Shown here: positions 9,722 through 63,600 of the stretch, in pieces
Numbering within the stretch: the stretch's first letter is position 1
How the letters are laid out: each line of letters begins with the position of its first letter
Origin: Ilex aquifolium
Taxonomy: Eukaryota; Streptophyta; Magnoliopsida; Aquifoliales; Aquifoliaceae
DNA length: 64,000 nucleotides
Reading direction: 5' to 3'
Assembly: GCA_951799425.1 (NCBI GenBank)
Contig: OX637396.1
Span: forward strand, 35,270,701 to 35,334,700
The notes under the pieces: model-generated
What the model was told of the DNA's origin: nothing
Databases searched by the model: none
The model's input: only the letters and a program-made list of their open reading frames with translations
Translations under genes and position numbers: made by a program

Positions 9722-9900
9722 AAGTATGTATGATGATGTATTTTTCAGGGGTTTAATCTTGTAAAACTGACCAGAATCATTTTGGAATAATATGCTCCAA
9801 GTTGGAATTTCTTTGCCTTAATATTTTGCCTGTGCAAAATCCTTTGTATGGAACAGTTAAGACAAAAAGGACAAATGACATTTTGTCCCTTAAAGTATTT
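9722..9900 (+). pseudogene. Orphan 3'UTR of a lost CAD/PAR-like reductase copy
   Basis: This stretch aligns by eye with the 3'UTRs of gene 1 (about 16400-16560) and gene 2 (about 35805-35960). Shared landmarks, in order, are a CTTGTAAAA-type motif, CAGAATCATT, AATAATATGC, CAAGTTGGAA, TGTGCAAAAT and TATGGAACAG. No upstream exons of the family are visible, so only the tail of a former array member remains. It is the left-most trace of the tandem array. Confidence 0.65.
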
Positions 9901-10762
9901 TAAAATCTAAAATTGTACCTTGAATTTCTTTAGACACAAGTAATGTGTGTGCCCCAATTAGTAAACAATGCCTCATTTTTCATTTGTTGACATTTTATCT
10001 CCACATACGTGATTTGAGAGAATTAATATTTATGGGGTGAACTGCAATTTTTTGAAAATTTTCAGGTGGTAAAGTAACATTATAAAGTTTTTTTCCGATG
10101 GAAAACTAAAAGCCCAGTTGTTGCACATTAAAATTACTATACTTCTAACTTTTAAGAAGCTAAAGAGACATTGGGAGATTTTCTTATTATTTGGTTTTGG
10201 GTTTGTCTCACAGTCCATAGTAGGGCTGATAATTGAATGCGCTACTCCGGTTTGGTTTGAATTCAGTTCGTTCTGAGCTTGGTTCAAGGTCTACTCTTTT
10301 TTCTAAACGAGTAGAATTTGAATAATTTTTTCGGCACAAACTCGACATGTTTATATTATAAATATTCGGATTCGGCTTGTTTTAGGCTCATTCAGGTTCG
10401 AAAATGAGACAAATTTGAATAATTTTTAAGCTCGTTTAAAAAAAAAAAACTCAACATGTTCGGTTCGAACTCGACATGTTTGATTTGATTATCAACCCTA
10501 TCCATAAGCCTAAAGAACATGGCTTGGACCTAAATTCTAAAGCTTCAGCGCTTACAACAGTGAAATTGAAAGTTTTGGCCGTGGAAGTCTTGATAGGTTA
10601 AAAAATTTGCAATTTAAACCCCCTACAATTTTTTTTTTTTTTTTTTCATTTCAAACCTTGAATTTTCTCCATAATTAAGTATTTATTTCATATACTTCAT
10701 GGGACGACAATTCAATCTCTCATTCTTTCAAGTCTCATATACTATTCAACCTCACTTTTCAA
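9901..10762. other. Intergenic DNA, no gene recognised
   Basis: AT-rich. A T run at 10629-10645 and TTCGG/CTCGACATG-rich motifs at about 10320-10490 look like decayed transposon sequence, but no termini are clear. The 9-bp duplication of the next element occupies 10754-10762. Confidence 0.4.
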
Positions 10763-11490
10763 TAGAGGTGCAACTCGGGCGGGTTGGGCGGGTTGAGGGT
10801 CAACTCTAGTCCAACTCTAGGTATATAATCTTCAACCTTAACCTTAACTCTAACCCTACCTCAACTCGAGGTACTCAACCCGAGTACTGCCCGAGTTTAA
10901 TTCGGGCGAGCTTGGGTTGAATTCGAGTTAAAAATCGGGTTGTGCTTGAATTACTTAATTTGGATTGATTTTTTGAAGTGTTAATTTGATTTTTTTAAGT
11001 GTAGATATGATTTTTTCAAGTGATCTAAGATGAAAGGCAAGACACAGATGAAGAGAGAGAGATGAGAGAATGAGGAGTGACGAGTGAGAGAGGGAGGTTG
11101 AGAGTCTGAGACGACTCAAACGAGTGACGATTGAGAGAGGGAGGCTGAGAGAGCAAGAAGTGACGAGTGAGAGAGGGATCTGAGAATGATGGAGACACAA
11201 AGATGAAGACTTGAAGTGAAGTGAAAGTCTAGACTCTAAAAAGTGAAAATAAAAAGTAACCCTAGTTAAATTTATTTATATATTTATGTATATTCGGGTT
11301 CAACCCGATTTTAATATTTGGGTTGAACCCGATAACTTGACGTCTCAACCTGAGGCTTGTTCAAATTCAATTCGGGTTAGAGTTTTTTTGTCCAGACCTA
11401 ACTCAAGTATTAAAAATTCTAACTCAAACTTTATTTTTTTTGGATTAGACTCGAGTTGAATTCGAATTCGTCCGCCCAAATCGCAACCCT
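10763..11490. mobile_element. MULE-like MITE next to the gene 1 promoter
   Basis: Termini TAGAGGTGCAACTCGGGCGG and, reverse complemented, AGGGTTGCGATTTGGGCGGA are inverted repeats. A perfect 9-bp duplication ACTTTTCAA lies at 10754-10762 and 11491-11499, which is the Mutator hallmark. There is no transposase. The right end stops only about 35 bp from the conserved promoter block of gene 1 and about 195 bp from its start codon, so it may influence transcription (inference). Confidence 0.8.
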
Positions 11491-11523
11491 ACTTTTCAAG
11501 CCTCAAATGCTTATTTCAAAGAA

Positions 11524-11684
11524 GTCCAGCGACACTGACGTAGCCGCTTACAAAAGCTGTGCGACCATGAAGCCCCTAACACGTCATCATCATCTATATA
11601 TATACCATCACCCATCGTTCAAATGCTCACTCCACTCGTCAGAGCAAACACTACACACGCACGAGAGAGAGAGAGAGAGAGAAG
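11524..11684 (+). promoter_or_regulatory. Promoter and 5'UTR of gene 1
   Basis: A block shared with gene 2, and in decayed form with gene 3, contains CACTGACGTAGCCGC (bZIP/as-1-like TGACGT core) at about 11533-11547 and AACACGTCATCATC (ACGT core) at about 11578-11591. A TATA box CTATATATATA follows at 11594-11604. The inferred 5'UTR ends in a GA dinucleotide run (about 11663-11684) that abuts the ATG. The same arrangement occurs in all three genes. Confidence 0.7.
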
Positions 11685-14600
11685 ATGAGCGGAAGAGGGA
11701 AGGTGGTGTGCGTGACAGGGGCTTCCGGCTACATAGCATCATGGCTGGTGAAGATGTTGCTTGATCGTGGCTACACCGTCAAAGCCACTGTTCGCAATCT
11801 CAGTTACCACTCTCTCTCTCTCTCTCTCTCTTCACCATATTGAACCGTCATTTATTCTAAAAGCGACTTTTTAGTTGTTAGAGAGAGTACGTGTATTTCT
11901 TGAACAGTTCTATCAATACCCTTGTAATTTTACGAGATTAGAACATTCCCACTTCTTGATATCATTTCATGTCCCCAAGTTCAGATAAATTTAGCATTAT
12001 GGATGTTTTAATTTTTAATTCTTTTGAGAATTGAGAAAAATACAGATGAAAGGATTGAGTTTATCGAGTTGGAAGGAAAAGGTACATGAAAGGATATGAT
12101 TCTCTGAATACTTGTTTATCATGGCTTAATCGAGTTATTAACATTTGATACTAATTCGACCTTTCATCATTCATACCACCTAGTCATGTCATATTGAAAT
12201 TCGTATTAAGAACTAGTCAATCCTAACTTGCGAATCTTGTGTCGTGTTAAAATTGTCCAAGGACCACAACTCTTAGATAATACTAAGGCCTGAACACTAA
12301 TAGTTAATGCAGGGACAGTAATATTATTTTCCTTAAGTGCAATTCTACTTTTACCAAATCTATTGTTGTTGTTTTACTAAACAAACAGTAAAGTTCTCGT
12401 TAGCAAATTTCTAATTCCTTTCTCACATTCTTTAGTCTAATTGTCTTTGTTTCTGTTTATATGTATCACAGGTGATCCGAAGAGGACTGCACATCTGCTT
12501 GGACTTGAAGGGGCCAAGGAAAGACTGCATTTGTTTGAAGCAAACTTACTTGAAGAGGGATCTTTTGATGTTGTGGTTGATGGTTGTGAAGGTGTCTTCC
12601 ACACAGCCTCTCCCGTTATCCTTTCAGTCACTGACCCTCAGGTCCATGATCAAACTTCAACATTCCTATTGTGATTTTTCGTATAGTAGCCGTCATCTGT
12701 ATAAACACTTAAAAGGGGAATAAATTCTTTTGTTGACTTTCAAACTTTTTTATTCAAACACTGCGATTTCTAACTTATTTCTCAGGTTCTCAACCTGTCA
12801 TAGTTTATATGAAAGCGTGATTTCTTTATCTTTTGTAATTTATATGAAAGTGTGGTTTTAATTCATATCATTCTCAAATTTGTATGACAAGACACTGTTC
12901 TATTTCTCATTTGAAAGTGTGTTCTGCAAATACGCTTGTATGTTGGAAATCGTAAACCATGCTTTCATATTAACAATGATAGGTTAAGAAGTAAGTTAGA
13001 AATCACAGTTTTTGTTGAGCAAAAGGAATTTGAACAAATAGGCATCTTGACACTACAACCATCGTGACATCATTAGTTTCATGTTAATACTGTCCCTAGG
13101 TTCAGACCCATACCTGAAAACTGTATTGTAGTTTATGTAGTGTTACCCATCTTCTGGTCATTTCTTGCATGCTTGCTGCTCTTGTTATCACTTGGAAGTT
13201 TTTTGGTCATCTCACGTTCAACAAAGGGATTGAAATAACGGAGTGAAGAGTTGATATGTATGTGCCAAGATCAAGAAGTAAACCTCATTTATTTGTCAAA
13301 GCAATGGAGATTCTACTGTCTTAATCTGGCTAGAAAATAGCTCCCATATACGTAGGTATGATCTAGCGGCAGAAGATTAGCTAAAGACGACCTGTGGACA
13401 AGCAAGCAAGGGTGTTTGATAATTTGGTTACTTTTGATGGCCTAAAAGGAATGATAGAAATGTAAGAGGTCTACACTCAACATTTTTGCAGATTCTTGAA
13501 TTTCATGAGATTTATTACAACCAAAACTCTTACGAATTGTGCTATACATTTAAAGAGCATCTTACGCTACTCGCTTTTCATAAAAAATGGAGAATTAAAG
13601 TAATCAACATGAATACAGCTTGGTATATGCAAGGAATTTATTTTCTATGTGCTGCCTTAAGGCTATTTTGTGCACACATTGGTGTAATGCTATTGGCTGT
13701 TTATTCACTTCCTTGGTAAACTGTATACAGAAAGGGCTGTTTATCATTTATTTACCATGTTTCAGGCAGAATTAATTGACCCTGCTGTGAAGGGAACAGT
13801 TAATGTTCTCACATCCTGTGCAAAAGTTTCATCTATCAAAAGGGTGGTAGTAACATCTTCCATGGCTTCGGTTAGATTCAACAGAAAACCTTTAAACCCG
13901 GATGTTGTAATTGATGAGACTTGGTTCTCCGATCCAGTATTTTGTCAGGAATCAAAGGTTTGTGATGTGCTAATACCTTCGATATTTAAGTTATTATGTG
14001 ATAAAGTGCTGAAGCAACATCCATAAACTTTCCCCAGGACTCTCTTGTATTTCTCTCTTTTGTTGCCATGTTTGTACAAATAGCTTAGTCACTTTAAGGA
14101 TTTTTGCATGATGAGAAACAATTATCAATGTTTGAATGCTTCTTGCATGTCCTTTATGAGAACCAAGTAGAAGATCTATCATCCTATGCTCTGTGGTTTT
14201 GCATGGTTTTCTGTTGTTTGTATTTGCTTGCAAAACAATAGGTATACATGTAATCTCTTTCGGTTAATGGAATCATTGCTTATCCGAAACTAAAAAAAAC
14301 ATTTGACTGCATCTTTTAATGTTGTACAAAGTCCATTGAGATAGTTCTTTTTAGCTTAAGACCTAAGATAGATCTTTAAGTTTTAGTTATGGGGAAAAGG
14401 TGAAGGCTGTTTTCTTTCTGAAAATGTAAGGACAGTGAAGCTTATGTTGTAGCTTGTGTTTTTGTTCAACAACATAGTTGGAGATAAGATAACTTTCTAT
14501 AACACCCTTCCTTATGTGCTAATGAATTAATGAAACTTTGGTGTATGCCTCAGCTGTGGTATATGCTTTCAAAAACACTCGCCGAGGAAGCTGCATGGAA

Positions 14601-16372
14601 ATTTGCAAAACAGAGTGGGATTGACTTGGTGACGATACATCCAGATTATGTGATTGGTCCTCTCTTACAGCCGATTCTCAATAGCTCTTCTGAGGGGATT
14701 GTAGACTTCATAAATCATGGTATGCTTTTCTATAACAAATTGAGTGTTATGAGTATGATAGTATCTTTCTACATGAAATGTATTATATACTTCATTTCAA
14801 TTGTTGTAAAAGCTTGGGAATGAATGATAAGCCCCTAACTGCTATATGGTTATGGAGATTTTGTTAGAGAACTATTTACATTGATTTAATAGTTATCAAA
14901 GATTAAACATGATATTCAAATGATCTTTACTCAAAAGAAATGGGCCAAATGTATCATTCTAGTTGCATATCTATCTTCAAGTAACAGAAAAAGCCCTTCT
15001 TTAGTTCAAATGCCCAATAATTTTGGGATTGTGGGTTCGAATCTGAGGGCAGTCACTTTTGCAAATAGTGTCCAAAGTTAGGTCTACATTCAATCCACAC
15101 CTCCCAAGTGTTATTTGTCGTGATGGGCACAAACAAATTCTTTGTATTTTTTTTTTGTAAAGTTGTAAATGTGATTCTCTTGATACAAGCAATTAAGCTT
15201 TATATGATGCAGGGAAGGAAATACTATCGAGTGGAATCTTTTTATGTGTTGATGTTAGAGATGTTGCATATGGACATATTCAAGCATTTGAGATTCCTTC
15301 CGCTAATGGCAGATACTGTTTGGCCGAGACAGTAACATACTACTCCGAAATTCAAAAGATAATACACAAGCTTTACCCTACTCTCAACCTTCTTGAAAAG
15401 TAAGTATTTAGTATTTGAAACGTCCTTAATGCTAGATAACTGAGCTACTAATTTAAATAATTGAATTTGACCACACATTCAACAAAATGTGCATTGTGTT
15501 AAATTTCCCATATTTAATTGGGTTCTCATCTCTTTTTCTTTCTCCTAATAAAATTTAGCTCTAAATAATATCATACTAATAGTCAGTCACTGGTGTAAGC
15601 TGATGCATGTTCTCCATCATTGTCATGAAAACTGCTTTTTCAGGGAATGGAAAGACATGATTGGATTGTGTTAACCTTGTACAAAATGTGAGGTGGATCA
15701 AAGAGTTCTACAATGGATGGAAGTAGTTTGATGATCTATAGAATGAAATTAGCTCAAGTGAATTAAGTTTAATATATAATGATTCTATCAAGAACTTCCA
15801 TTAATTTTGTGTTTAGGTTAGAATCAAGTCAGAATGCTGTCTTTTCAAGCTATTTTTTGGAGTAGGAAATCAATGGAAAGATTGGCTACTTAGAAACACC
15901 TTCATATTTTACTTGAGGACATAGAGAATTAGGCCAAGTTAGAATTAGAATCCAAACACCTTCAAATTTGTTTCTTTTTTTTTTTTATCTCTGTAGAATA
16001 TATTGAAGAAGAGGTAGAGAGTAATTTCATGCTTAGAATCCAAAGATCCTACTTCTAGAGCTACTAGAAATGGAATTTTTTGAACTATTTCATTTTTTTA
16101 GTTACAATTTAAGCTTTCAAAGTTTCTTATGGTAATTGAATGGTCTATCATCCGGAGATCATTTGAGGTATAAAATTTCTCACAACCAAAGGAATCTGAA
16201 TAGAACTTTGTGTTTTATTCATGGCAGATATACAGATGAAAAGCCGATTATCCCACCATACCAGGTATCCAAGGAAAGGGCAAAAAGTTTGGGCATTGAT
16301 TTCCTTCCTCTTGAAGTGACCCTTAAGGACACTGTAGAAAGCTTGAAGGAGAAGAAATTTTTGAATTTCTGA
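11685..16372 (+). CDS. Gene 1: CAD/phenylacetaldehyde-reductase-like NAD(P)H reductase, six exons, 325 aa
   Basis: Exons 11685-11802, 12472-12641, 13766-13957, 14554-14719, 15213-15399 and 16228-16372 join in frame to 978 bp, all with GT/AG introns. The product is a cytosolic-type short-chain reductase of the CCR/DFR superfamily (no signal peptide or membrane segment). It has a nucleotide-binding motif VTGASGYIA near residue 10, Arg37 after ATV (typical of NADPH users), VVVTSSMAS with the catalytic Ser (127/128), and YMLSK with Tyr163 and Lys167. The CCR signature NWYCY is absent, so it is not a bona fide lignin CCR. The family reduces aldehydes such as phenylacetaldehyde or cinnamaldehydes, but the substrate here is unknown. 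Length fits the usual 320-326 aa. Odd point: [12 protein letters not shown] has Asp where relatives usually have a small residue. Intron 1 has a CT repeat at 11810-11832. Intron 4 includes a B-box-like GGGTTCGAATC around 15032, possibly a SINE scrap. Confidence 0.88.
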
Positions 16373-19311: not shown

Positions 19312-20101
19312 CTAGTTCACAATGAATCGATATCCAATATACCTCGGATCTCCAATGTACTCAGCAATTTGTTCAGGGCGCAAACTTCCCTACCCACATT
19401 AGAACGCACCCTTTTTCCCCTCACTTTATTAGTAGTGCCCCTTTACTCTCTACTTCGTTTTACGTCTTTACTTTCTCTTTGGGTATTTCACCAACAAAAC
19501 CTAGGCCTTGTCGGCCAGTTCTCCCTGTATATTCAACCACTTTTACATCTTCTTTTGCATTCTTCCCAATTGCCCTACCCTCGTACCAACCATACCCACT
19601 GAGAAGCGCTTTCCCAAACTCTTTCACGGGCATATCGGTAAATTCATTGACCCCATTATCCTCCGGGAGCCTCTGCAAATCATCTTTCAATTTCTGTAAC
19701 ATCAGCTTCTGTATGGACTCTGGCCGCGGAGGCGACCTCGGCTCGACAATTGCACCATTATTCATGGCCCGCCGTAGATTCAAGCCGTAGGATATGGAGG
19801 AATCGGTCTCGACAGAGGAGATAATAGGGTCTTGTTCAAAATCGAGATTATCTGGACGGGCGGATTGGGACGGAAGATTGAGGTTGTTCATCTTCTTGTG
19901 AGGCCTCCATTCGTTGGCTATTGGGGGGATAATCAGCTCTTTGGATTCTGAAATTTTTAGGGTTTCTAAGGAATCGAATTCTGTGATGTATTGTTTCGTG
20001 GTGGATGAGAGATCCTCTTGGTCTTTAGCGTCAGTTTGCGAACGTTTGAGGGGTAGAGGCTTTGAAGATGGGTTTGAAGACAGAGAAAAGGAGAGCTTCA
20101 T
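19312..20101 (-). pseudogene. MOS2: MOS2/GPKOW-like G-patch protein gene with internal deletion
   Basis: The minus-strand frame starting at 20101 encodes 213 aa that open with MKLSFSLSSN. It includes the conserved EWRPHKKMNNLNLP and ISYGLNLRRA segments and a G-patch domain at about residues 160-205 (GKALLSGYGW ... GKNAKEDV ... GRQGLGF). This is the N-terminal half of MOS2, a nuclear G-patch/KOW RNA-binding protein of about 460 aa linked to small-RNA processing and immunity in Arabidopsis. The frame stops after IPKEKVKT. The KOW region is missing, but the extreme C-terminus EQIAEYIGDPRYIGY is still readable in another frame at about 19330-19374, ending with a stop at 19312-19314. So roughly half the gene was deleted. 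A short G-patch-only protein could still be made. The family identity is firm; loss of function is inferred. Confidence 0.75.
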
Positions 20102-20257
20102 GGTGTTGACGATGGAGAAGCAAACGACCGAGAGAGAGATGATTGGGTTGGGGAAGATGTATGCTGGGTTGAGTTTTGTGTCGAGAGGTTATGACAGTGG
20201 GAATATTAAAACCATTCCAATTGGGTTTGGGTTGAGAGTCATTTTGTTCCCTATTAT

Positions 20258-21250: not shown

Positions 21251-21697
21251 TTAGGTCTGTCAAAACTCGACACGACACGATTAACTGATACGAATCGACA
21301 TGAATCGACACGAGTTAAGTAAGTTTGGGTGAGACCTTAACGGGTTTAGGTGGTAAACGGATTGACACGCCAGACACGTTTAATAAACGGGTCGTGTTCG
21401 AGTGAGACCTGTCAACCTGTTTATCACTCGTTTACCCGTTTAAATAAATTTCATATAATAATAAATTACTAGTTATTGCTTGTGCCTGAAGGTACAGAGT
21501 AATAAAAAATGGTAAACAATACACATATTTGTATTCATATCCAAAATCAAATCACAAACATAGAGAAGAGATAAATGAATTTAAGCATCAGTTGTAGTGG
21601 AGGTGAGAGGTGGTGGTGGTAGGAGACGGTGATGGTTGTGGTGGGTGGCAATGACCGCAGTGGTGGTGGTGGCGGCGACGGCGACGGTGGTGGTGGT

Positions 21698-23248: not shown

Positions 23249-23320
23249 GTGGTGGCGGCGGTGGTGGTGGTGGTGACGGTGACGGTGGTGGTGGTGGCGA
23301 CGGTGACGGTGGTGGTGGTG

Positions 23321-23554
23321 GCAACGGCGGCAATGGTGGTGGTGACAGCTGTGGTGGCAATGGCGGTGGTGGTGGTGGCGGCGAGGGCAATGGCGACGGT
23401 GGTGGTGGTGGTGGCGACGGTGACGATGGTGGTGGTGGCAACGGCGGCAATGGTGGTGGTGACAGCTGTGGTGGCAATGGCGGTGGTGGTGGTGGCGGCG
23501 AGGGCAATGGCGACGGTGGTGGTGGTGGTGGCGACGGTGACGATGGTGGTGGTG
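23321..23554. repeat. 117-bp tandem duplication in the Helitron C core
   Basis: The unit starting GCAACGGCGGCAATGGTGG at 23321 recurs at 23438 with almost no change (117 bp, 39 triplets). Keeping multiples of three is expected from slippage in triplet DNA and does not imply coding. Confidence 0.75.
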
Positions 23555-27123: not shown

Positions 27124-27172
<49 letters not shown>

Positions 27173-46620: not shown

Positions 46621-46858
46621 TAATATTATAGTTATCTTAATTTAATTTGTGTCTATTTTGATCTAATCGTATAAAATTTATTATAAATTTTTTTTACTGA
46701 AAAACGTTTTATTTTTTCTATACGACTTTTAATGTCAAATAACTCAATTAATACACTTTTTATTTTTATTTTTTTGGGTTCAACGGTTAAGAGTGCCCGG
46801 ATCAATTTATACGTATCTCAACTAATCCTCTTTCCAGTCCAGTCAAAGGCAGGTTATT
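46621..46858. other. Start of the insertion in the gene 3 promoter
   Basis: AT-rich sequence without a match elsewhere in the window. No gene. Confidence 0.4.
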
Positions 46859-49188: not shown

Positions 49189-49194
<6 letters not shown>

Positions 49195-52100
49195 GGAACA
49201 GGGAAGGTGGTGTGCGTGACAGGGGCTTCGGGCTACGTAGCATCATGGCTGGTGAAGATGTTGCTTGAGCGTGGTTACACCGTCAAGGCCACCGTTCGGA
49301 AACTCGGTCAGCTCTCTCTCTCTTTCTCATCACCTTTACCGTTCTCTGTAGCACATATTGTTTAGAGTCATCTTTGTTTCCTATTCTTTTCTGTTCGAGT
49401 TGGTTCGAGTCTTGAGTCTTGGGTTCGTTGGGGCGGACCTCGTGATCTAGTGGTTTATACTCTCCTTTACCCCACCCTTTTTTAATTATCAAAAAAAAAA
49501 AAAACAATTCATACAATACGAACATTCTCTGGCTTCTATGTTACACTTTTGAAAGCGAGTCAAGTTTAGAGAGGACAACAAAAAAGGAAAGATTAAGTAA
49601 GTCGAGCTGCTGCTGGTCGATGCTTACCTTTCTTTTCTCGAGAGCATTATGCCGTAACCGGATTATTATGTTTGATACTAATTTTAGGGCCAGCCCAACC
49701 ACAAGCCTAATAAAATTTGGACTTTAAACCTCACTTTTAACCACCGGATGGGGTGGTCTAAAGGGAGTATAGACCGAATTTCTCACTAAAGTAGGAGGTT
49801 CAAATCTTGGAGTTCATATTAGGGATCGGTGCATGACTACTATACTAATCTAGCTAGGTTGACCACTATGCTAACCTAGTTACGTCCGTTTCTAAGAGAA
49901 GTAACGGACACGGTCAAGGCGTCATGATTCCACTAGCGAGAGCCTATCGGAGTGGTCTTCCGCTCGATCCCTTGCCCCCTCCCTTTGTTCGCACATAAAA
50001 AAAAACCTCACTTCTAAGAAAGATCCCAAATTTTTGAGTACATAATTAGTTAATATCAAAAATTTAAATTCAAGAAATTTTTAAGTCTTACAAAAGGCCC
50101 TATAAAAATATAAGCCCCTAGGAAATAATATCACCAATGTTTCACTTCAAAATTAAAATTAATTTGTAGTACAAAAAAAATAAAAAAAAAATGAATAAAT
50201 ATAACTGATGGGTCAAGCCCAAATAGCCCAATTTATGTGAAAAGGCCCAACCTCGATTGAAGAGTCCAACCATACAAAGACCCACCAAGTCCAAGTTCAA
50301 GTCCAATCCAGCTGGGGCCCTCCTCCGAAGGAATTGGAGTACGAGGGAGAGAAATACGGCGCACAGAGAAATCCTACCAAATTGGTAATTACCAAAACAA
50401 GTAGGAAATCCCTCCCTCACGGCACCGCCTCACCTCCAAACCCTAACTCTATAAATGTAAGCCCTCTCATCATCTAGGGCAGACGCCTCCCAAAATACCT
50501 CATCTCCTACCCTTGCACAACACTGTCGTTCCTTTTCCCTAAAAGCTCTGTAGCTCCGGTGACGATTATTCATCAATAAAGAACACCAAAGGCCATCGTT
50601 GCCATTAAAAGTGGACGTAGGCCAAGGCCGAACCACTATAAATCTCTGCTTTACTCCTTTATTTGCCATTTTTGGCATTGATTGTTTGTTTACTGCATTT
50701 TTATATTATTTACTTGACTGTGGTGCACGAAAACCAATTTGTGCATCATCAGTTTGGCGCCGTCTGTGGGAATCGACAAATTCTCATTTCTAAACACTTT
50801 TTCTGTTGAATCAATGACGATCACTACCCGATCGATGAACCAGCCTGAAGATAATCCACCAAGAGAAGAGGAGGTTGCTCCTCCCCCAACCAATTATGTC
50901 CCAAGTACGTAGCAGATACTGGAGACCATGCAGGAGCTTATGGCCCAGAATCAGCAAATCCTTCAACTAATGCTCACGGCGCAAGGAGGAACACTACCTG
51001 AACCTCAAGAGGGAGGAGCTCCACGCCTTGAGCGTCAAAGAGCTCCCCATACAGGAGCACCCCATCATGGCGCCACTTTTGGAGCTCACTTGGGCGCCCC
51101 GCCTATGGGAGCCCCCTTGGGCGCCCAGCATGGGGGACCTCCCCATGAGGGACTCTAACCCCCACCTCTTCCAGCTCCTGCTCCTCATGGTGGAGACCCT
51201 CCTCTCCATGAGGATAAGGGTGAAAATCAAAGCATGGGGCATGGGAGCCATTTTCACGACAATTCCAGAGGAGCTCCCAACCATTGGAATGAGAAAATTA
51301 AAGAAGTACAAAATCAGCTAGGTGACGTCTTCAATGCCATGAAGGCGCAAGGACCTGAGACTGTGGACTATCTTGTTAGGCGAACTGACACGCCTTTCAA
51401 GCCAGACGTGGCGAACTACCCCCTCCCTCAAAAGTTTCAAATGCCATCGGTGGAGACCTTTGACGGGAAAAAGGATCCACTGGACCATTTGGAGACTTAC
51501 AAAACTCTAATGCAGATGCACAGTGTCCCCGACGAAATCATGTGCAGAGCATTCCCGACCACCTTGAAGGGATCAGCGCGACAATGGTTCGCCAAACTCA
51601 CCCCGGCCTCCATAGGCTCCTTCGCCGAATTGAGCAGATCCTTTGTGACACAGTTCATCGGTGGACGCCGCCAGTAGAAGCCTGTCACCCATCTGCTCAG
51701 CATAAAGCAGGACCAAGATGAGAGCCTGAGAAGCTAGCTGACTCGTTTTAACGAGGGGGTCCTTCAGGTCGAAGAACCCGATGAAAAAGTCAGCATGACC
51801 GCCTTCCTGGGAGGCCTCCAATCATCGAGCTTCCTTTTCTCCGTGATGAAGCGACCACCGAAGAGCATGCTAGAACTATTGGCAAAAGCTCAAAAATATA
51901 TGAATGCTGAGGAAATCAACAAGTCTAGGCGAGGTGAATCATCTCGCGGATCGTCAAAAGATTGACCTGCTCTGCACTGTTCTCAAACAGGCAGCCTAAC
52001 TCCAGCTTAGCGGCTCTCTCGCGGGTCGCCAAAAAAGCTTGGCCTCTGCACTGTTCTCAAACAGGCAACCTATCTCTAGCTTAGCGACTCTCTCGTGGGT

Positions 52101-55100
52101 CGCCAAAAAAGCTTGACATATCTCTGCTCTGCTCTTAAGCAGCAGCCTACCTCTGCACTGCTCTCAAGTAGGCAGCCCACCTACCTCCGCACTGTTCTAA
52201 AGCAGGCAGCCTACCTCCCTCTCCAGGTAATTGTGTTAAATATTTTAATGTTTGGAATAACATTGTTTTTTCAACACCTCTCAGGCACCGAGCACATGCG
52301 CCAAGCACCTCTTAGGCGCCTAGCACAGGCATTCAGCATCTCTCAGGCGCCCAGCACCTCTTTGGCACCCAGCACAGGCCCCCAACACCTCCTAGGCACC
52401 CAACATAGGCGCCTAGACCTCCCAGGCGCCCAGCAAAGTTGCCCAGTCCCTCTCGGGCGTCCAGACCCCCCAAGCTCGCCCAAGGCAACTCCGGCTTGCC
52501 CAAGGCAGCTCCAGCTCGTCCAAGGTGCTCAAAATGGGGCTTATAATATATCAAATCGAAGCTCTCGACGAGCTCTACAAGACTCACAGCCTATGGCTGT
52601 GATTGATGCTGTAAAAAGTCCAAAAAAGGCTCAGAAACAGCTATTTTGGCCTCTCAAATTTTTTTTCAAAAAAAAAAAAAAATTCTGCTCGCCCAGGACA
52701 CTTCCAGCTCGCCCAGGACACCTCCATCTCGCCCAAAAGCTGTCATCTCGCCCAAAACCGTGCATACAACTCTCTGCTCGAAGTTTTGACCGTAACTTTT
52801 GCTCCGTTGCTCCAAATGGGGCTTATAATATATCAAATCGAAGCTTTCGACGAGTCCTACAAAACACACTGCCCATGGCAATGACTGATGTTGTAAAAAG
52901 TCCAAAAAAGGCTCAGAAACAGCTGTTTTGGCCTCCCGAAGTTCTTCCAGTTATGCCGGTCAGCCGAAAATTCAAATTCAACCGAATGCCCTCCTCTCCA
53001 AGTTCCATTGGACACAGGGCATTGGGGGGCAAATGATGGGCCAAGCCCAAAGGCCCAACTCATGTTACAAGCCCAATGGCCCAACTTCAAGAGGTCCAGC
53101 TAGTCAAGCCCAATGTGGTCAACCCGGTCAAACTCAACAAGCTCAAGGAGCTACATTAGCAAGGAGCACATAAGGTCAAGTTCAAGGAGTAACATTAGCA
53201 GGAGCATACAAGGCCATCACGCCAGGCGTCCAGGCCATAACGCCATGCGCCCTGCCCTCCTCCTCAGGCGCCCAGGCCTCATCAGGCACCCCTAATGGCG
53301 CCCAGGCAAGGCCCTCAGGCTCCCAAGCCTCCTTAGGCACCCCTGATGGCGCCCAGGCCTCTTCAGGCACCCCTGATGGCACCCAGGCAAGGCCCTCAGG
53401 CGCCCAAGCCTCCTTAGGTACCCCTGATGGCGCCCAAGCCTCTTCAGGCACCCCTGATGGCGCCCAGGCAAGGTCCTCAGGCGCCCAAGCCTCCTTAGGT
53501 ACCCCTGATGGCCCCCAAGCCTATTCAGGCACCCCTGATGGCACCCAGGCAAGGCCCTCAGGCGCCCAAGCCTCCTTAGGTACCCCTGATGGCGCCCAAG
53601 CCTCTTCAGGCACCCCTGATGGCGCCCAAGCCTCCTTAGGTACCCCTGATGGCGCCCAAGCCTCCTCAGCCACCCTTGATGGCGCCCAGGCAAGGCCCTC
53701 AGGCGCCCAAGCCTCCTCAGCCACCCTTAATGGCGCCCAGGCAAGTCCCCCAGGTGCCCAGACTCCCTCCGATACCCAGACAACTCGCCCTATGGGCTTA
53801 CCTCTTCCAAAAACCTCCTCCTCCTTCTCCTCCTTCAATGCTTGCAGCTCCAAGAACTCCATGACCGCCGGATTCAGATCCAATTTCGCCACCTTCCTCA
53901 ATCGACATTGTCCTCTTAAAAATCCTAGCAAAAGTGGAAAAAACTTGGAGTATGCACCAAAGCAAAAATGCATCTAGCAAGGGAAGTCTCCACCACCTGA
54001 AACTCAAGATGTAAACTAATGCACCCTTCTCCAAAGTTTCCTTGGACAAGGGGCATTGGGGGGCAAATGATGGGTCAAGCCCAAATAGCCCAATTTATGT
54101 GAAAAGGCCCAACCTCGATTGAAGAGTCCAACCATACAAAGACCCACCAAGTCCAAGTTCAAGTCCAATCCAGCTGGGGCCCTCCTCCGAAGGAATTGGA
54201 GTACGAGGGAGAGAAATACGGCGCACGGAGAAATCCTACCAAATTGGTAATTACCAAAACAAGTAGGAAATCCCTCCCTCACGGCACCGCCTCACCTCCA
54301 AACCCTAACTCTATAAATGTAAGCCCTCTCATCATCTAGGGCAGACGTCTCCCAAAATACCTCATCTCCTACCCTTGCACAACACTGTCGTTCCTTTTCC
54401 CTAAAAGCTCTGTAGCTCCGGTGACGATTATTCATCAATAAAGAACACCAAAGGCCATCGTTGCCATTAAAAGTGGACGTAGGCCAAGGCCGAACCACTA
54501 TAAATCTCTGCTTTACTCCTTTATTTGCCATTTTTGGCATTGATTGTTTGTTTACTGCATTTTTATATTATTTACTTGACTGTGGTGCACGAAAATCAAT
54601 TTGTGCATCATCAATAACCACAATCAAAATTTATTAAATTCAATAAGTTGGGCCCGTAGTCCAACCCATAACAGTCAAAACCCAAAATATCAAAAGTTTA
54701 AAAAAAAAAAAAAAAGAAGAAGAAACCTCGTGTTAAAAATTAATAGGTAATCTCATTTACCAACACTTACTCTCAACCTCTCTCTCCTGCCAAAAACAAA
54801 AACAAAAAATGAAAATAATTAGAGGATCCTCCAATTCATTTTGCATGGCGAGGATTTATCCACTCCTGCAAATTCGGTCCATCATAAATTTTTCAAAATC
54901 TAAAGTACATATTTCAAAATTTTTAGGATTCTCTTTTTCTATGTACTTATGGAATGATTTTTGTATTTTATTACACCAATTTTAAATAATACAAAATGAT
55001 CTTATATTTTTTTGAAAAAAATATGTAAAATGATTTTCAATGTGTTCTAAACTTATTAGTACGTGTCCAAAGTTTATCCGTAATGTGTTCATTGTCATTT

Positions 55101-58100
55101 ATGTATGCAGTCAAGCTTTTTGACTATGTGGCTTTGCCCATTTTCAGGAAAATATATCTGAAAGAGATATAATATTTGTATATATAACAATATACATAAT
55201 TTTTTAGAAAAATGGGAAGCTGGCCTGTGCCCCTGGCTCCCACATAACTGTGGCCATGGTTTAAGTATTTGAATGAACTTATGTTAGCTCATTTTTTCTG
55301 TAAGATGAACTCAGCTTGGCATGCCACAGCACAGCTTTATTTCTATATGGCTGAGGTACACTCCAGTAGTTCTGATTTGCAAAATTTGCAATTACAATTT
55401 AACACGTTCGTTTATTCTAATTGTCAGTATTTCTATTTAAATGTACTACAGATGATCCGAAGAAGACAGCACACCTGCTTGAATTTGATGGAGCTAAGGA
55501 AAGGCTACATTTCTTTGAAGCAAACTTAACTGAAGAAGGATCATTTGATGCTGCGGTTGATGGTTGTGAAGGTGTCTTTCACACAGCCTCTCCTATTTTG
55601 CTTTCAGTCACTGACCCTCAGGTAAATCCCCAAACTTCTACTGTGCTATGGTGATTTTGGTGTGGTAGCCACATCTGTATAGCACTTAAGGCAAATCAAT
55701 TCATTTGGTACTGTGATTTTGAAACTTCTTTATTCAACAACTGCGATTTCTAACTTACTTCCAATCTGTCCTAGTGTGTTTTGTCATACACACTTTAACA
55801 ACGAGAAGTGTGGTTCAAACTACCGCTTTCTTGTATGCTTGTTGGTCTTGTTATCACTGCAAATTGTTCTGATCGTCTCATGTGGCAACACATGTAATGA
55901 AATAACAGAGTGGAGAACAGATAAGCATATGACAAGATAAGCAGTAAACTTTAGCTATAAGCATATTAGTCAGAATGGTATCAAGACTTTGCCTTGGAAT
56001 AAGTTAACGTGGAAGCTAAAGAAAATAGAAACATGAAAACTAAAGCTTATTTCTTGAATTTATAACTTTATATGCAAAAGCTTGATGGGAAAATATATAT
56101 CTGAAAGTAGTGGAGATTCTACTGTCTTAATCTGGCTAGAAATTAGCTCCTTGTATAAGAAGTGAAAACTAGATCTAGTAAAACTGAAGTTCAGATGCTT
56201 TATTCTTTAGAAGTACAGGGCACTGTATCATTCTCTGTGTGGTCTTCCTCCCCTGTCCCTCCCATTCTTAGCGGGAGAGCAAGACGATTTTAGGTGGTTG
56301 AGTTATACTCTTTGTACATGTGATTTATCATCTTAGTTTAACAACTCATAGCAGTTCTTAGCTTAAAACGAATGATAGAAATGTGAGAGGTCCACGCTCA
56401 TATCTATTTTATAGCTCCTTGAATTTCACTAGATTGGTTGCAGCCAATAATCTTACCAATTCAAGATCATGTTTTGTTGCTAGCTTATTTTCAAGAAAAA
56501 TGTTGAATCAAAGTAACCAATGCAGGAAAGTTTTTTTCCGATAGAATGCCTTAGTGCTATTTCGTGCTTACGTTTACATAATGCTGTTGGCTTTTATTCG
56601 CTTCTTTTGAAAAACTGTATATAGAAAGGGCTGCTTATCATTTGATTACCATTTACCACGTTTCAGGCAGAGTTAATTGAGCCTGCTGTGAAGGGAACAC
56701 TTAATGTGCTGACATCCTGTGCAAAAGTTTCATCTATCAAAAGGGTGGTACTAACATCTTCAATGGTTTCGGTTAGAAACAACGGAAAACCTCTAAACCC
56801 CGATGTTGTCGTTGATGAGACATGGTTCTCAGATCCAGTATTTTGTCAGGAATCAAAGGTTGGTAATTAGCTAATGTCTTCAAAATGTAAGTAATTAAGT
56901 GATGCAGTGCAGAAGCAACATCCATTGAGTTCCCCATGACTCTTGTATTTCTTTCTTTGTTGCCATGGCTATAGAAATATGTTAGTCGTCCATGAAAGAT
57001 AAGTAGAAGACATGTCATCCTATGCACTGTGGTGTGGAGTATACATGATTTTCTGTTGTTTGTTTTTGCTAAACTTTGGTTCATGTATCAGTATACGCTA
57101 TCGAAAACCTTGGCCGAGGAAGCTGCATGGAAATTTTCAAAACAGAATGGGATTGACTTGGTGACAATACATCCAACCTATGTGACTGGTCCTCTCTTGC
57201 AGCCAACTCTCAATAGCTCTGCTAAGTTGTTTCTGAACTTCATAAATAATGGTATGCTTTTTCTGTAGCAAATGAGAATGATGCATATGATATGACAGTA
57301 TCTTTATACTTGAAATGTTTTGATCCTTCATCTCAATTGTTACTAGCAACCATCTAGGTAAAATATTGAGAGTTATTGTGAACAAGATACGTTGAGCCTT
57401 TTTTATATATCTGGCAGGATTAGAAACATTGTATGGACAGTTACATGTAGGAATCAGGCCCTAATTAATATATGGTTATGGGGGTCTCTTAGAGAGCAAT
57501 TTATGTTTCATTTAACTAATCAGATTACGAATAGAATCTAATGTAGTTTGGAAGGAAACTACTCATTCCTTTTCATGACTGCTGGTGTGAAGTTCTAGAA
57601 ATTGTTTTTCTTCTGACGGTCACTGAGATAGGATTTGGTTCCAGAAAGAATTTTGATGGGGAGATAAGCCTTTTGAAAATTCTTTATCTCATCCATTCTG
57701 TCATTTGAAGTTTAAAAGGCAGCCATCTTAGTGCTGCTATCTCAATATGTTCTTGTTTGTAAGAAGTCTGAATTCATTATTCATTGCAAGATTCAATTAT
57801 TTTGTGAGATGCAGGAGAGGTTATCTTCTCTGAAGTTTGCTCATTGTTTCCCCTTCTCTTTTTATTTTTTAGTTCTTATGAGATGCCTATTTGTTGAGAA
57901 CAATGGCCCCTAAGGATAATTTCTCTTGCTGATTGTGCGTTTATATTATATTCCTTGGCATCCTGAGAAATTGACTTGGAAGACTGCTATTAGTATTGTT
58001 CATAATCCAGTTCAATATGAAAGAACCAAACATGTTGAAATTGACCAGCACTTCATTAAAGAAAAGCTAACCAAGGGCTTTATTTGCATGCCTGCTGTGA

Positions 58101-59847
58101 AATCAGAGAATTAGTTAGCCGATATTTTCATTAAGGGGGTTAGCAAGTTGGGCATGAGGAATATCTATGTACCAACTTGAAGGGGAGTGTTACATTGTGC
58201 CTTATTACTAAAATAAGGGTATTTGAGTATTTTGTCTATATATGAATAGGGTATAGTTGTGTAACCTAACACACTATCCTATTTTGACAATATTTTCTCT
58301 TCTTCTTTTTTCCTCTCGCTCTCTAAACCCCATCAGTTTCATAACTTAACTGAAAATTATGTTTAGTAGCTTTCAAGCGATATATACACACATATATTGT
58401 AGAACTCATGCAAAACTGAAGTAGAAATCTTGGAGGACAATAATTTCCTTTAGTTCCCACTTTTTTTTATCGTGATATATATAATGGCCAAATATTATTG
58501 TTCTAGTTGCTTAATTATCTTCAAGTACAAGCAAAAACACTTTTTTTTTTTAATTTCAAGGACAGTGTTGCACTGTTGCATATGCAAATCTCTTTTTCTT
58601 TCTTAATTAGGTACATCTGCACATGTAATTCTTTTCATACGAGCTTTTAAGTTATATATATGATGCAGGACAAGAAATTCACTTTGCTGAAACCTATGAA
58701 TGTGTTGATGTTAGAGATGTTGCATATGCACATATTCAAGCATTGGAGATTGCTTCAGCTAATGGCAGATATTGTTTAGTCGAGACAGTAACATACTCTT
58801 CCGAAATTCTGAAGATATTACACAAGCTTTATCCAGCCCTCAACCTTCTAAAAGAGTAAGTATTTAGTATTTGAAATGTCGGCTAAGCTAATAACTAAAT
58901 TAATTAAAGTTGACCACATATGTTCAGCAAATGCGCATTATGCTAAATTCTTTATGTTTCATTGGGTTCTCATTCCTCTCTCTCTTTTACGTCATATGAG
59001 AAATTTTAAATGTAATTCTTCTCATAAAAATTATCCCTCTCAATAATATTATAATTAGGGCCAGTCAATGGGGTAAACTCATGCATATTATCCACTGTTG
59101 TCACGTTTCGATTATGTTAATCACAGAAAATATGTTAGGTAGATCAAAGAGTTCCATGGTGGAAGGAAGTTGTCTGATAACCCATATAATAAAAGTTGCT
59201 TAAGGGTTTTAAGTTTAGGACATAACTACTTATTAAAGAATTCCCTTAGCTTTATGACTTTTGGTTATGTAAGGTAATTAAAATGTCCTATAAAATACAA
59301 ACAATGGAAAAAGAACTAAAGGACAATAGCTATTCAAAACTACAGGAGGCCACTCAACAAAGTATTAATAGACTTATAATTAACTAGAGAACAATTATAA
59401 TCTCCGAACACCATATAATTACATGAAAAGGGTTAACTCTAAGCCTTTTTTAATTGAATTTCTATTGAATATATTGACAAGAAGTACCATGTAATGTCAT
59501 ACTTAAAATGCATGATTGATTTATTTCTTTAGGTACAGAAAAAAATGAATTTGTGGTACCTTTCTTTTTGATATGCAATTCACATTCCAAAAAAAAATTA
59601 TTGCAGTAATCGAAGATATATTGTATATGTTATCTTTTGATGTCTACACTATCGCTTTAGCAAAGAAATTTTAATTGAATTTAATATTTTTTTTTATGGC
59701 AGGTGTAAAGATGAAAAGCCTGTTGTCCCACCATTTCAGGTATCGAAGGAGAAGGCAAAAAGTTTGGGCATTGATTTCCTTCCTCTTGAGGTGAGCCTTA
59801 GGGACACCGTGGAAAGCTTGAAGGAGAAGAAATTTATAAGTTTTTGA
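49189..59847 (+). CDS. Gene 3: CAD/PAR-like reductase, six exons, 323 aa, 6.1-kb first intron
   Basis: Exons 49189-49306, 55452-55621, 56667-56858, 57092-57251, 58669-58855 and 59703-59847 give 972 bp in frame. The product has [18 protein letters not shown] and the YTLSK catalytic motif, so the Ser/Tyr/Lys set is present. Exon 4 is 160 bp, not 166: the codons for Leu-Trp that precede the catalytic Tyr in genes 1 and 2 are gone, without a frame change, and the AG acceptor is kept. Intron 3 is also shortened to 233 bp. Other differences are [10 protein letters not shown] (Thr in place of Gly/Asp) and SSAKLFLNF for SSAEGILNF. Intron 1 contains a SINE and a 4.4-kb LTR element. The gene is open but may have altered activity and, given its displaced promoter, altered expression. 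Substrate unknown. Confidence 0.83.
49741..50002 (+). mobile_element. SINE in gene 3 intron 1
   Basis: Flanked by AAACCTCACTTTTAA (49726-49740) and AAACCTCACTTCTAA (50003-50017), a 15-bp duplication with one change. Contains an A-box-like TGGTCTAAAGGGAG, a B-box-like GGTTCAAATCTT and a terminal A run. tRNA-derived type. Confidence 0.8.
50206..50751 (+). repeat. 5' LTR of the LARD-like element
   Basis: Starts TGATGGGTCAAGCCC, ends GTGCATCATCA. Contains TATAAATG at about 50450 as a possible TATA box and AATAAAG near 50575 as a possible poly(A) signal. Confidence 0.92.
50814..51965 (+). pseudogene. Ty3/gypsy-type gag with in-frame stops
   Basis: A single reading frame from ATG 50814 to TGA 51963-51965 is interrupted by TAG 50910, TAA 51156, TAG 51675 and TAG 51735 but has no frameshift. 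It includes the Retrotrans_gag core: [35 protein letters not shown] and [12 protein letters not shown]. The N-terminal half carries an imperfect Gly-Ala-Pro-rich repeat ([20 protein letters not shown]). Since the LTRs are almost identical, these stops were probably already present when the element jumped. Confidence 0.85.
51966..54067 (+). repeat. Non-coding filler of the LARD: minisatellites and duplicated blocks
   Basis: Four parts are visible. (1) CTGCACTGTTCTCAAACAGG-type repeats at about 51966-52225. (2) AGGCGCCCAGCAC-type repeats at 52270-52460. (3) A 130-bp block (GGGGCTTATAATATATCAAA ... AAAAGTCCAAAAAAGGCTC) present at about 52537-52655 and 52815-52940. (4) A 30-bp-type minisatellite (GGCGCCCAAGCCTC...CCCCTGAT) at about 53225-53760. 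At 53018-53100 GGGCATTGGGGGGCAAATGA plus LTR-like start sequence repeats the element's own 3' junction. ORFs here on either strand follow the repeats and are not called. Confidence 0.75.
54068..54613 (+). repeat. 3' LTR of the LARD-like element
   Basis: Differs from the 5' LTR by about three substitutions (ACGGAGA for ACAGAGA, GACGTCTCC for GACGCCTCC, AAAATCAAT for AAAACCAAT). Confidence 0.92.
57926..58345 (+). mobile_element. Copia 3'-end relic in gene 3 intron 4
   Basis: Reads [20 protein letters not shown], then after a stop [16 protein letters not shown], the typical copia RNase H C-terminus. A purine tract AAGGGGAG follows, and an LTR-like segment starts TGTTACATTGTGCC at 58188 and ends near 58345. 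A shortened version is in gene 2 intron 4, none in gene 1. So it inserted before the gene 2/gene 3 duplication but after the split from gene 1. Confidence 0.78.
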
Positions 59848-61794
59848 ATCATAATATAGTAATGAGCAATGCCAATGCGTATAACGCTATGTTTTTCAAG
59901 GTTTTATGTTGTAAAAGTGACGTTATAATGTATATGTTGTCTGAAAACTAATTGCCACCTAGCAGTTGTGGCATAATGCTACGTTCTTGAAATTATAGTT
60001 CTGATTATTTTTGTATCGCAGTTACTAATTCGAGTACATTGTAACTTCAACTATTTATATTTCTGACATGTTATTCAAAATCGGTACTGTTTTGAAATTA
60101 AAATGACCCACATCTCAAAAGTGTTGGAATTAATATTTAATAATTAAGAAAGTAAAGTAAAATCAGAATCACATTTTGAGGGGCAAAGTATAATTAAACC
60201 TTAACAAACCAAACTAGAGGAGGCCACATGTCTTGAAACAGTTCATTGGCACATGATAAGGAAAAGAAAAGATAATATATAAAATACTTATTTTATTCGT
60301 ACAATATCATATTCAGCTTTAATATAATTCTTCTATTAATCGTGTTAATGGGTTGTTTCACCCTAAAAAATAATATGTGTTATTTTCATTTGAATTTGAC
60401 AATTTGTGCAAAATATTTCAAATTTAAACAACTAAAGATGTAACGTATTCAAATCAATAGCAACCATAAAGAAGTGAAATAGAACCACGTTTTTTTTTTG
60501 GGAGGGGAGGGGAGGGGGGGGGAGTATGATTAATCCTAAAAAAAATAAGGATAAATTATACTTTGACCCCTAAACTATGGACTTGATTTCACTTTGCTCC
60601 TTAACCTAATAGTTTAAAGGGTAAAAACAGATTATAGTAAAAAATAAGACTTCCTTGAAACTAAAAGTTGGATTTGATTGTTCCAATATAAATTTAATAA
60701 AAATATTTTTTTTGTACCAAAAAAATTTATTGATGCTTTTTTTCTAAATTTATTTTGTTTGATTGGATCATATCCAAATTGATCCTTGAAACTCATTTAG
60801 TAAATAAGTGAACAAGGATTCATTTATACATATATGTTTTTCTATTTCAATTATTGAATTATAACTTTATTAATTTAGTTGGTCCCTAAATTTTATCTGA
60901 AGTTTTAATATGTTACATCTAATTATTTATTGACATACAAATTTAAATAATTATAATTATAATTATAAATTTCTTTTAAAAAACGCATGATCCTATAGAA
61001 CAGCCCTAAGGGAGGGAGTAAATATTGGGCTCATTTGGTAGACGTATTATGAGGGGATTAAATATTGAATTGTACTATTTTTTATTTAATCTAGCCTAAT
61101 ACTTTGTTTAGTGAGCAAATTTGATACTGTATTAATTTCAAAAATATATAATAATCGTATACTTATCGCATATTTTTTGTACGATAGATTTGTATTATAA
61201 AGGTTTTTTAATACCACCAAGAGATGTGGTATTATAATCCAACTCAAACGTATTATTCTATACATTTACTATAATAACCCCCAAGTGATAAAATCAAGTT
61301 GTCATCAATATAACAAACACTAATTGAGAGTATTTTTGTTAATTCAACATTAATACGATGAAATAATTCTCTAACCAAACAACCGATTGAATTAAATAAC
61401 TATTATCCAACGCTTATATCGTGTATTGTCAAATACTAGATAAAATTACGTATTATTCTAATACCATATTTAATCTTGTCTTTTATCCATCTGTATTGTA
61501 TTTGACTGTATTACTTTATCCAATCCATCTATTTTTAATACGACAATCAAACGAACAGTGATACCACGTCATCATTGATACATGTTATCACCATTCAATA
61601 ATAAACCTATAAATAGATAAGATCAACCTTATTTGACTAGTTATTAAATGATATGACAGGGTGATTACTAGAATATGTAGAATTCATATATTTATTTGTA
61701 AGTTTATTATTAAATAGTGACACATGTGTCAATAAAGACGTGATGACATGGATACTATGCACATCGTTACACCTAATATTTTTTTTCACTTTCC
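59848..61794. other. Gene 3 3'UTR and spacer
   Basis: A short family-type 3'UTR reaches about 59940. From 59960 to about 60470 the DNA matches the flank of gene 2. A G-rich run lies at 60500-60522. The rest (60525-61794) is AT-rich with AATACGA/CGTATTA-type inverted motifs around 61040-61520, which look like a decayed transposon, but no gene is seen. Confidence 0.5.
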
Positions 61795-62357
61795 ATAGGT
61801 ACTATGGTGACCCAACGTTTAATTTCTTTTTTAGGACCTTTCCAATAAGATAACTTGTAAATGGTCATTTTCTATTCCCTATGTATTAAACGTCCAAGCC
61901 CCAAATGTTAGAACGTCACTGCTAACGTCACAGACTCACAATCGTGCTTTCCCCCCAATAGAAACATTGGAGAATGTAGTGATGTATATATATAGTATTC
62001 ATAGATGTACCAATGTACATATTAGTGTCCTGACTTTATGTGATGCGCGAGATATATGTTTTGTTTTTTTTAATTAATTTTATTCATTGCTTTTCTCTTT
62101 CACTTTATTACTTAAGAAATTAGATAAAACATAATAAATTACTATATAACAAAAATAATTTATATAAATAATTTTTAAAAAAAATAGTGACTAGTTAGTT
62201 GAGAGTTGAGGAATAATCACAAAAAAAAAAAAAATTTGATAGAATGTAATTGAAAAGATATGAATATGATAATTAAAAAAATAAAAACTCTACAAATTAA
62301 GGAAAAGTAAAGCGATAAAGGGAAAGCTTCTCCCCTTCAGTTTGTGTATTATATATA
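61795..62357 (+). other. Upstream spacer of a fourth array unit, left part
   Basis: Homologous to gene 2 upstream sequence from about 26448 (GGTGACCCAA, AATAAGATAACTTGTAA, TTAGAACGTCA, TCCTGACTT, AAACTCTACAAATT landmarks). It is interrupted at 62358 by Helitron D and continues at 63097. Confidence 0.7.
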
Positions 62358-63096
62358 TCTATATAATAAAGTAGCTTATAATTCAAATCTCAAAAGATAA
62401 ACAAAATGACTTTTGTTATTCGCGGTTTAAATCATTTTAAATTTTACTTTAAAGTTAATTTAACGGCTAATATTAACACTCTATATTTAATAAGAAAAAT
62501 AGGTACCTAAGGGTGTGTTTGAAGTGACTTTTTAAAAGTACTTCTAGAAATTATTTTTTATAAGTACTTTAAAAAAAAAAATAGTTTTTGAAACCGCCCC
62601 ACTACTACCTCTACCACCACCACCATCGTCGTCATCGCCGTAACCGCCACCACCACCGTCGCCGCCACCACAATTGCCACCACCGCCACCATCATCACCG
62701 CCATCACCACCATTGCCACCACCACCACCACTGCAGCCGTCGTCGCCACCACCACCACCATCATCACCACTACCACCGCCACCGCCACCGCCACCACTGC
62801 TGTCGCCGCCACCACCACCGCCACTATCGCCACCACCACACACCGCTACCACACACTGCCGCCACCACCACCATCATCACCGATGCCAAATCTATCGCCA
62901 CCACCACGGTCATTGCCACCCACCACAACCATTACCGTCTCCTACCACCACCACCTCTCACCCCCACTACAAACCGATACTTAAATTCATTTATCTCTCC
63001 TCTATGTTTGTGATTTAATTTTGGATATAAATACAAATATGTTTATTATTTACCATTTTTTATTACTTTGTGCCTTTAGGCACATGCAATAACTAG
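62358..63096 (+). mobile_element. Non-autonomous Helitron, copy D
   Basis: TCTATATAATAAAG start, hairpin TGTGCCTTTAGGCACA, CTAG end, between host A and T in a TA-rich stretch. CCA-type core at about 62600-62975. It is the shortest of the four, with ends very similar to copy A. Frames in the core are compositional. Confidence 0.87.
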
Positions 63097-63344
63097 TATA
63101 TATATATATATAAGTTTAAGTGTCTCATTTATATAGTAAGATTCATTCAGATTAATTTTTCAAGTATTTCATCATAAATCTACTTTTTTTTTTTTTTACT
63201 TAAAACATCATTTTTGAAAAATTAAATGAAAACATCACTTACTAAAAGCATTACCAAAATAATACATTAGTTTGACCATGAACTAAATTATATAATATTT
63301 CTAACTTAAAAAAAAACGTTTTTGTTTTATTAATTAGGGAAATA

Positions 63345-63503
63345 CTGTGTATTTCAAATTTACAACACAAATTTGCATTTCAAATGAAGGGGGACCATTG
63401 GATGAGTGTGTCTCATCAATTTTTTTAAATGGGACCCACTGATTCAATGATCCCTCTTCATTTGAGATGCAAATTTGAGTTACAAATTTGTGTTACATAA
63501 CAT
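63345..63503. mobile_element. Fold-back insertion
   Basis: Left arm 63362-63400 (ACAACACAAATTTGCATTTC ...) is the imperfect complement of the right arm 63445-63496 (... GATGCAAATTTG ... ACAAATTTGTGTT). The gene 2 counterpart near 27450 has TTATTAATTAG without it. A small MITE or a hairpin-forming element; no termini could be assigned. Confidence 0.55.
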
Positions 63504-63548
63504 TGCTTTATTAATTATTTGTAAATATAATGAATTCGACCCTAACAT

Positions 63549-63591
63549 ACTCGGTTACCAAATCCGTGGGACCATGAGGCTCAAAACACGT

Positions 63592-63600
<9 letters not shown>
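63549..63600 (+). promoter_or_regulatory. Promoter relic of a fourth array unit
   Basis: GTTACCAAATCCGTGGGACC, CATGAGGCTCAAAACACG and TCATCATATATA match the promoters of gene 2 (27945-28000) and gene 1. The ACACGTCATCAT motif is intact. The TATA region has become a long TA run, and the following 340 bp do not show the leader or the ATG exon, so the unit is broken or its exon 1 lies beyond an insertion. Confidence 0.6.

Follow-up and report, generated by a model that had tools for sequence, protein, structure and literature searches.

A tandem array of reductase-type genes on holly chromosome 6

A cluster of repeated aldehyde-reductase-type genes, about 170 kb long, lies on chromosome 6 of English holly (Ilex aquifolium), and the window analysed here, a stretch of 64 kb (chromosome 6: 35270701-35334700), is part of that cluster. 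All coordinates are those of the window, continued beyond both of its edges. The sequence examined extends from -89999 to 154000 (244 kb; the window and 180 kb of flanks) and does not contain a single N. Genes were called by tblastn with exon peptides and by gene models. The resulting array consists of seven six-exon genes placed head to tail and one or two relic units at the left, all in one orientation. At E 0.01, the exon peptides found no match between -89999 and -30794 or between 139359 and 154000. The features are listed below.

9718-9907, plus strand: relic 3'UTR of a left-hand unit, from blastn to the 3' ends of the genes
11685-16372, plus strand: gene 1, open, 325 aa, modelled with GT-AG introns; exons 11685-11802, 12472-12641, 13766-13957, 14554-14719, 15213-15399 and 16228-16372
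28095-35781, plus strand: gene 2, frameshifted pseudogene; exons 28095-28212, 29785-29953, 31335-31526, 32034-32199, 33225-33411 and 35637-35781
34219-35562, minus strand: non-LTR retroelement fragment in intron 5 of gene 2 (zf-RVT PF13966, E 4.4e-22; RVT_3 PF13456, E 2.6e-15)
36417-43118, minus strand: LTR element lying between genes 2 and 3, with LTRs of 95.6% identity across 475 bp and ATACG as the 5-bp target duplication
44350-48645, plus strand: gene 3 unit, upstream (promoter-side) sequence present in duplicate, from self-comparison
49189-59847, plus strand: gene 3, open, 323 aa; exons 49189-49306, 55452-55621, 56667-56858, 57092-57251, 58669-58855 and 59703-59847
50206-54613, plus strand: young LTR element in intron 1 of gene 3, with LTRs of 99.45% identity across 546 bp and ATAAC as the target duplication
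61789-64000, plus strand: upstream region of gene 4, from alignment to the region upstream of gene 2 and from the gene 4 model
64709-78128, plus strand: gene 4, six exons, open, beyond the right edge of the window
88864-96266, plus strand: gene 5, six exons, open, right of the window
104637-115376, plus strand: gene 6, six exons, open, right of the window
128114-139358, plus strand: gene 7, six exons, open, right of the window

The units are adjoining and homologous, run in the same orientation and have a common gene structure, as expected of a tandem array. Exon lengths are 118, 170, 192, 166, 187 and 145 nt in five of the seven genes. The initial annotation had described three six-exon genes in the window with equal exon lengths and phases; these are confirmed, all on the plus strand, except that exon 2 of gene 2 (169 nt) and exon 4 of gene 3 (160 nt) depart from the pattern. 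Each of the 35 modelled introns has GT-AG borders. The donor of intron 1 is weak (GTCAGC in six genes, GTTACC in gene 1), and thus the junction of exons 1 and 2 rests on reading frame and homology. Additionally, leaders, introns and 3' ends can be aligned between units, both by self-comparison and in the unit alignment, as had been proposed for the leader and 3'UTR.

An open frame with its stop at the same place was found in six of the seven genes (1, 3, 4, 5, 6 and 7). Gene 2 is frameshifted, as had been proposed: it has lost 1 bp late in exon 2 (at about 29929-29935) and is out of frame from there on. The earlier count of five units, only two of them open, does not survive inclusion of the flanks; two open genes is correct inside the window only. 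Since the array is cut by the window edge, the proportion of living copies was misjudged from the window alone. Extension to both sides, proposed as a check, did reveal further units, which are genes 4-7 at the right and relics at the left.

The two outer units of the initial annotation fared differently. The lone 3'UTR at the left is a genuine relic, 76% identical to the 3' end of gene 1 over 157 bp (E 1.5e-27 against a 1.7-kb end, 3.9e-26 against the 244 kb). It also matches genes 2, 4, 5 and 6 more weakly (five of seven genes in all), with no blastn match to genes 3 and 7 at E 1e-3, and no exon 6 was found beside it. The lone promoter at the right is rejected as a relic unit. Positions 61789-63337 align piecewise, in self-comparison, to 26437-27457 upstream of gene 2, and they lead to the open gene 4, whose ATG at 64709 lies 709 bp beyond the window edge.

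Left of the window, relics follow one another in the order exon 1 twice (out of frame past codon 27), exon 2, a deletion across exon 3, and exon 4; a further set consists of four copies of exon 4 and then exon 5. The four copies stand in tandem at -6476 to -5919 with a period of 133 bp, and three of them mutually agree at 127-129 of 133 positions and the fourth at 110-112. These relics represent one or two units: exon 4 occurs in two places, and the rest could be a single unit torn by insertions.

The array carries several passengers. Both LTR elements in the window have perfect 5-bp target duplications. The element at 36417-43118 contains SH3_retrovirus PF25597 in the one frame scanned, and by its frames we take it to be copia-like. 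The element in gene 3 has a weak gag-like frame (Retrotrans_gag PF03732, E 3e-5), scoring 24.6 bits where the cut-off is 24.1. In the upstream sequence of gene 3, 47251-48228 is 95.2% identical to 44350-45326 by self-comparison, and a stray leader fragment at 46504-46618 is 81.7% identical to 27879-27998.

Left of the window, an LTR-type element occupies -30236 to -19754 on the minus strand, with terminal repeats of 729 bp at 99.45%; the aligned repeat ends lack TG...CA, and its gag-pol-like frames are presumably of Gypsy type. The element is flanked by a direct duplication of 966 bp at 99.7% (-31197 to -18789) that bears relic exon 1. Flanking duplications of this length are unusual; this one could have arisen when two insertions recombined. 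Between genes 1 and 2, a 242-aa frame on the minus strand (19460-20188) contains a G-patch domain (PF12656, E 9e-18), which we assume could be a MOS2/SPP2-like fragment. A fragment of a BUD31-type splicing factor gene (24997-25212, minus strand; PF01125, E 6.1e-21) is probably a pseudogene. Four dispersed stretches (3201-4189, 5675-6950, 21445-24014 and 62349-63118) are related to one another and abound in CCA or GTG repeats; they occur in both orientations and are perhaps a transposon family carrying a triplet tract.

Protein family and predicted activity

By sequence, the array proteins are classed as predicted SDR108E reductases of the CAD/PAR-like kind. The closest solved structure is 4QTZ (E 6.6e-141), described as Medicago CAD2 (PMC10531346). 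The array proteins are 65-68% identical to this Medicago truncatula SDR108E protein over 316-318 residues and resemble it in length and in the YxxSK active site. In contrast to CAD2, which has neither change, all seven array genes carry K62E and N189H. The six open genes encode 323-325 aa. All seven genes have TGASGY(I/V)A, which agrees with the extended-SDR pattern TGxxGxxA, and YMLSK, YTLSK, YQLSK or YPLSK together with TSS (gene 2 read exon by exon), which gives a Ser-Tyr-Lys triad with YXX(S)K; the same holds for these active-site motifs in a copy on chromosome 16. Compared by published description, the array is also like the plant phenylacetaldehyde reductases olive PAR1.1/1.2, for which a YXX(S)K motif and a length of 326-328 aa are given (PMC8309162).

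The gene 1 protein, the sole array protein scanned, matched Pfam Epimerase at E 2.3e-18. Its six Pfam families were all of the Rossmann/SDR kind and included no ADH domain, and a zinc-dependent (MDR) CAD was rejected on these grounds. In a tree of 14 protein rows (those for chromosomes 5, 16 and 19 partial; midpoint root for drawing only), the array genes form a single clade (100/99), to which the chromosome 5 gene attaches (97/95). A 100/100 branch separates three solved cinnamoyl-CoA reductases (CCRs) from the array, and Medicago CAD2 falls on the array side together with the chromosome 5 and 19 sequences. Seven adjoining units and placement with CAD2 uphold the original description of a tandem array of CAD/PAR-like SDR genes.

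K62E and N189H are also present in the chromosome 16 copy and absent from the single homologues on chromosomes 5 and 19, a distribution that hints at a founder that had already changed. At positions fixed in four solved relatives, the array genes depart at 17-22 of 128-129. For the other three, fewer exons were compared: within exons 2-5, departures number 15 of 90 in the chromosome 16 copy and 9 of 90 in the chromosome 5 gene, and within exons 2-4 there are 6 of 67 in the chromosome 19 gene. Because the array genes depart from fixed positions more often than the chromosome 5 and 19 genes, the ancestral activity of the array may have changed.

In related reductases, key cofactor residues are reported to be Arg 43 and Lys 50, seven residues apart (PMC10531346). 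Matched by spacing and alignment, positions 37 and 44 in the array would correspond to these residues. Gene 6 has R37L, a Leu where its relatives have Arg, and this Leu likely replaces the cofactor-binding Arg. In gene 1, Lys 44 is replaced by Arg.

Graded divergence and a probable recombinant, gene 3

Divergence between the copies is graded. Genes 2-5 are mutually closest (Ks 0.09-0.16), gene 1 is further off (Ks 0.26-0.32 to genes 2-5), and genes 6 and 7 are furthest (Ks 0.27 to one another, 0.31-0.42 to genes 1-5). Array genes differ from the chromosome 5 and 19 homologues by a Ks of 0.81-1.19. Ka/Ks is below 1 in all 15 pairs of open genes (0.24-0.58), and genes 6 and 7 show 0.29-0.39 in every pair with array genes.

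Non-synonymous change peaks at codons 211-225, at the end of exon 4 and the start of exon 5 (pN 0.232). Positive selection at this stretch is not supported; pS is also high there (0.404; ratio 0.58). A ratio above 1 was seen in one of 22 codon windows (codons 91-105, 1.17), which has the lowest pS, and the scan does not establish selection above neutrality. The copies may differ in substrate preference, since it is around codons 211-225 that their proteins have diverged most.

Gene 3 had been called open, and its frame is, but a closer comparison reveals features not recognised earlier. Exon 4 has 160 rather than 166 nt, an in-frame loss that removes the two residues preceding the catalytic Tyr, which are LW in the other array genes. 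Along the aligned units, gene 3 is 95-99% identical to gene 5 across 55800-57399, whereas across 57400-59799 it is nearer gene 2 (91-94%) than gene 5 (86-91%). A maximum chi-square analysis put the best recombination point near 57680, in intron 4; gene 3 is gene-5-like at 127 of 158 informative sites to the left of this point and at 52 of 172 to the right (permutation p 0.0002). Five of six such comparisons gave a permutation p of 0.0034 or less, uncorrected for six tests, and the comparison of gene 2 against genes 4 and 5 yielded no recombination signal (p 0.58). The signal appears only when introns are included. A GENECONV-like run-length test on the coding sequences of the seven genes (21 pairs) found nothing after correction (lowest global p 0.69), the lowest uncorrected p being 0.046, for genes 3 and 5. 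The most fitting reading of gene 3 is a recombinant between a gene-5-like and a gene-2-like array member. Recombination of this type is the usual result of misaligned tandem copies.

The protein of gene 3 has also changed at an accelerated rate. At codons where genes 2 and 4 agree, to which the tally was confined, gene 3 has 18 private non-synonymous and 4 synonymous changes, compared with 3 and 7 in gene 5 (Fisher p 0.013). Its branch in the protein tree is longer, 0.088 versus 0.03. Genes 1, 4, 5 and 7 have neither the two-residue loss of gene 3 nor the R37L of gene 6.

A genome-wide search with exon 3 returned at least 21 matches at E 1e-5 or better; at least eight of the 21 have 80% identity or more, seven in the array and one on chromosome 16. 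With exon 4 there were at least 37 matches, and the at least 13 listed at 75% or more are the seven genes, five relic copies and the chromosome 16 copy. This copy is nearest to gene 2 (Ks 0.035 over 237 codons, exons 2-5) and retains exons 1-5, with flanks that match. At the point equivalent to 33952 its sequence skips ahead to the counterpart of 43528, and the 36 kb around it yielded no exon 6. The 1-bp deletion of gene 2 is absent from its exon 2. Other groups of exon-4 peptide matches lie at 1.87-1.94 Mb on chromosome 16, 40.04-40.09 Mb on chromosome 6, and 8.593 and 8.698 Mb on chromosome 5, the last two with equal scores on opposite strands; these groups are possibly further SDR clusters.

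Birth and death in a reductase family

Taken together, we favour, at a probability of about 0.85, a tandem SDR108E (CAD/PAR-like) array that has grown by repeated unequal crossing-over and has been pruned by frameshift, deletion and transposon insertion. In such an array, copies would arise by unequal crossing-over and be removed by the three routes of loss. The open members would use the N-terminal TGASGY(I/V)A site to bind NADP(H) and, through the Ser/Tyr/Lys triad, reduce an aromatic aldehyde of the phenylacetaldehyde or cinnamaldehyde type to the alcohol. Birth and death, as the initial annotation had put it, is supported by the graded Ks, the frameshift of gene 2 and the left relics.

Alternatively, most of the array might be non-functional, its frames open only through youth, with all the work left to one or two copies, such as gene 1 or gene 4. 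The frameshift in gene 2, the excess of private non-synonymous changes in gene 3, R37L in gene 6 and the relic units at the left all point this way. However, genes 6 and 7 are old by their Ks and are still open, with the Ka/Ks of 0.29-0.39 given above, and we regard a mostly dead array as unlikely. It is scarcely credible that the copies are assembly artefacts such as haplotigs or false duplications. The published holly assembly is described as not fully phased, but also as HiFi-based, with a QV of 64.2 and treated with purge_dups (PMC11109700). Furthermore, a copy-to-copy Ks of 0.09-0.42, different inserts among the copies, two LTR inserts in the window with intact target duplications and the lack of N in 244 kb all speak against assembly duplication, which was rejected.

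The array genes belong to the same superfamily as the CCRs and are 46-50% identical to the three solved ones, which would be in keeping with bona fide cinnamoyl-CoA reductases of lignin synthesis. This identity is nevertheless very improbable and was rejected: the NWYCYGK signature is present in all three solved CCRs and in none of the seven array genes, and the tree groups the array with CAD2.

Beyond growth by unequal crossing-over and subsequent pruning, we tentatively raise a further possibility, to which we give a rather low probability. The holly-lineage clade may have changed function before it multiplied, since all copies share departures from family positions (K62E, N189H and others). 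The cluster may then make a set of holly-specific phenolic alcohols, as the stretch at the exon 4-5 junction has diversified between copies, and the recombinant gene 3 would be a recent variant whose active site has been remodelled.

Clusters of similar SDR108E genes on plant chromosomes have already been described (PMC3541173). Compared with such clusters in general, the holly cluster includes a series of relics and one recombinant gene, and it has a copy on a second chromosome. A literature search on Ilex, cinnamyl alcohol dehydrogenase and tandem gave no report of the holly array among the papers listed, judged by titles and the opening of abstracts. Because SDR108E clustering is already described, the general picture is unchanged, and the array represents ordinary gene-family growth and decay. 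What holly provides is a gap-free, graded series of duplicates that includes both old and young open copies, a recombinant, a freshly broken gene, nearly erased remnants and a copy that has moved, and this series is usable for timing gene birth and death in a specialised-metabolism family.
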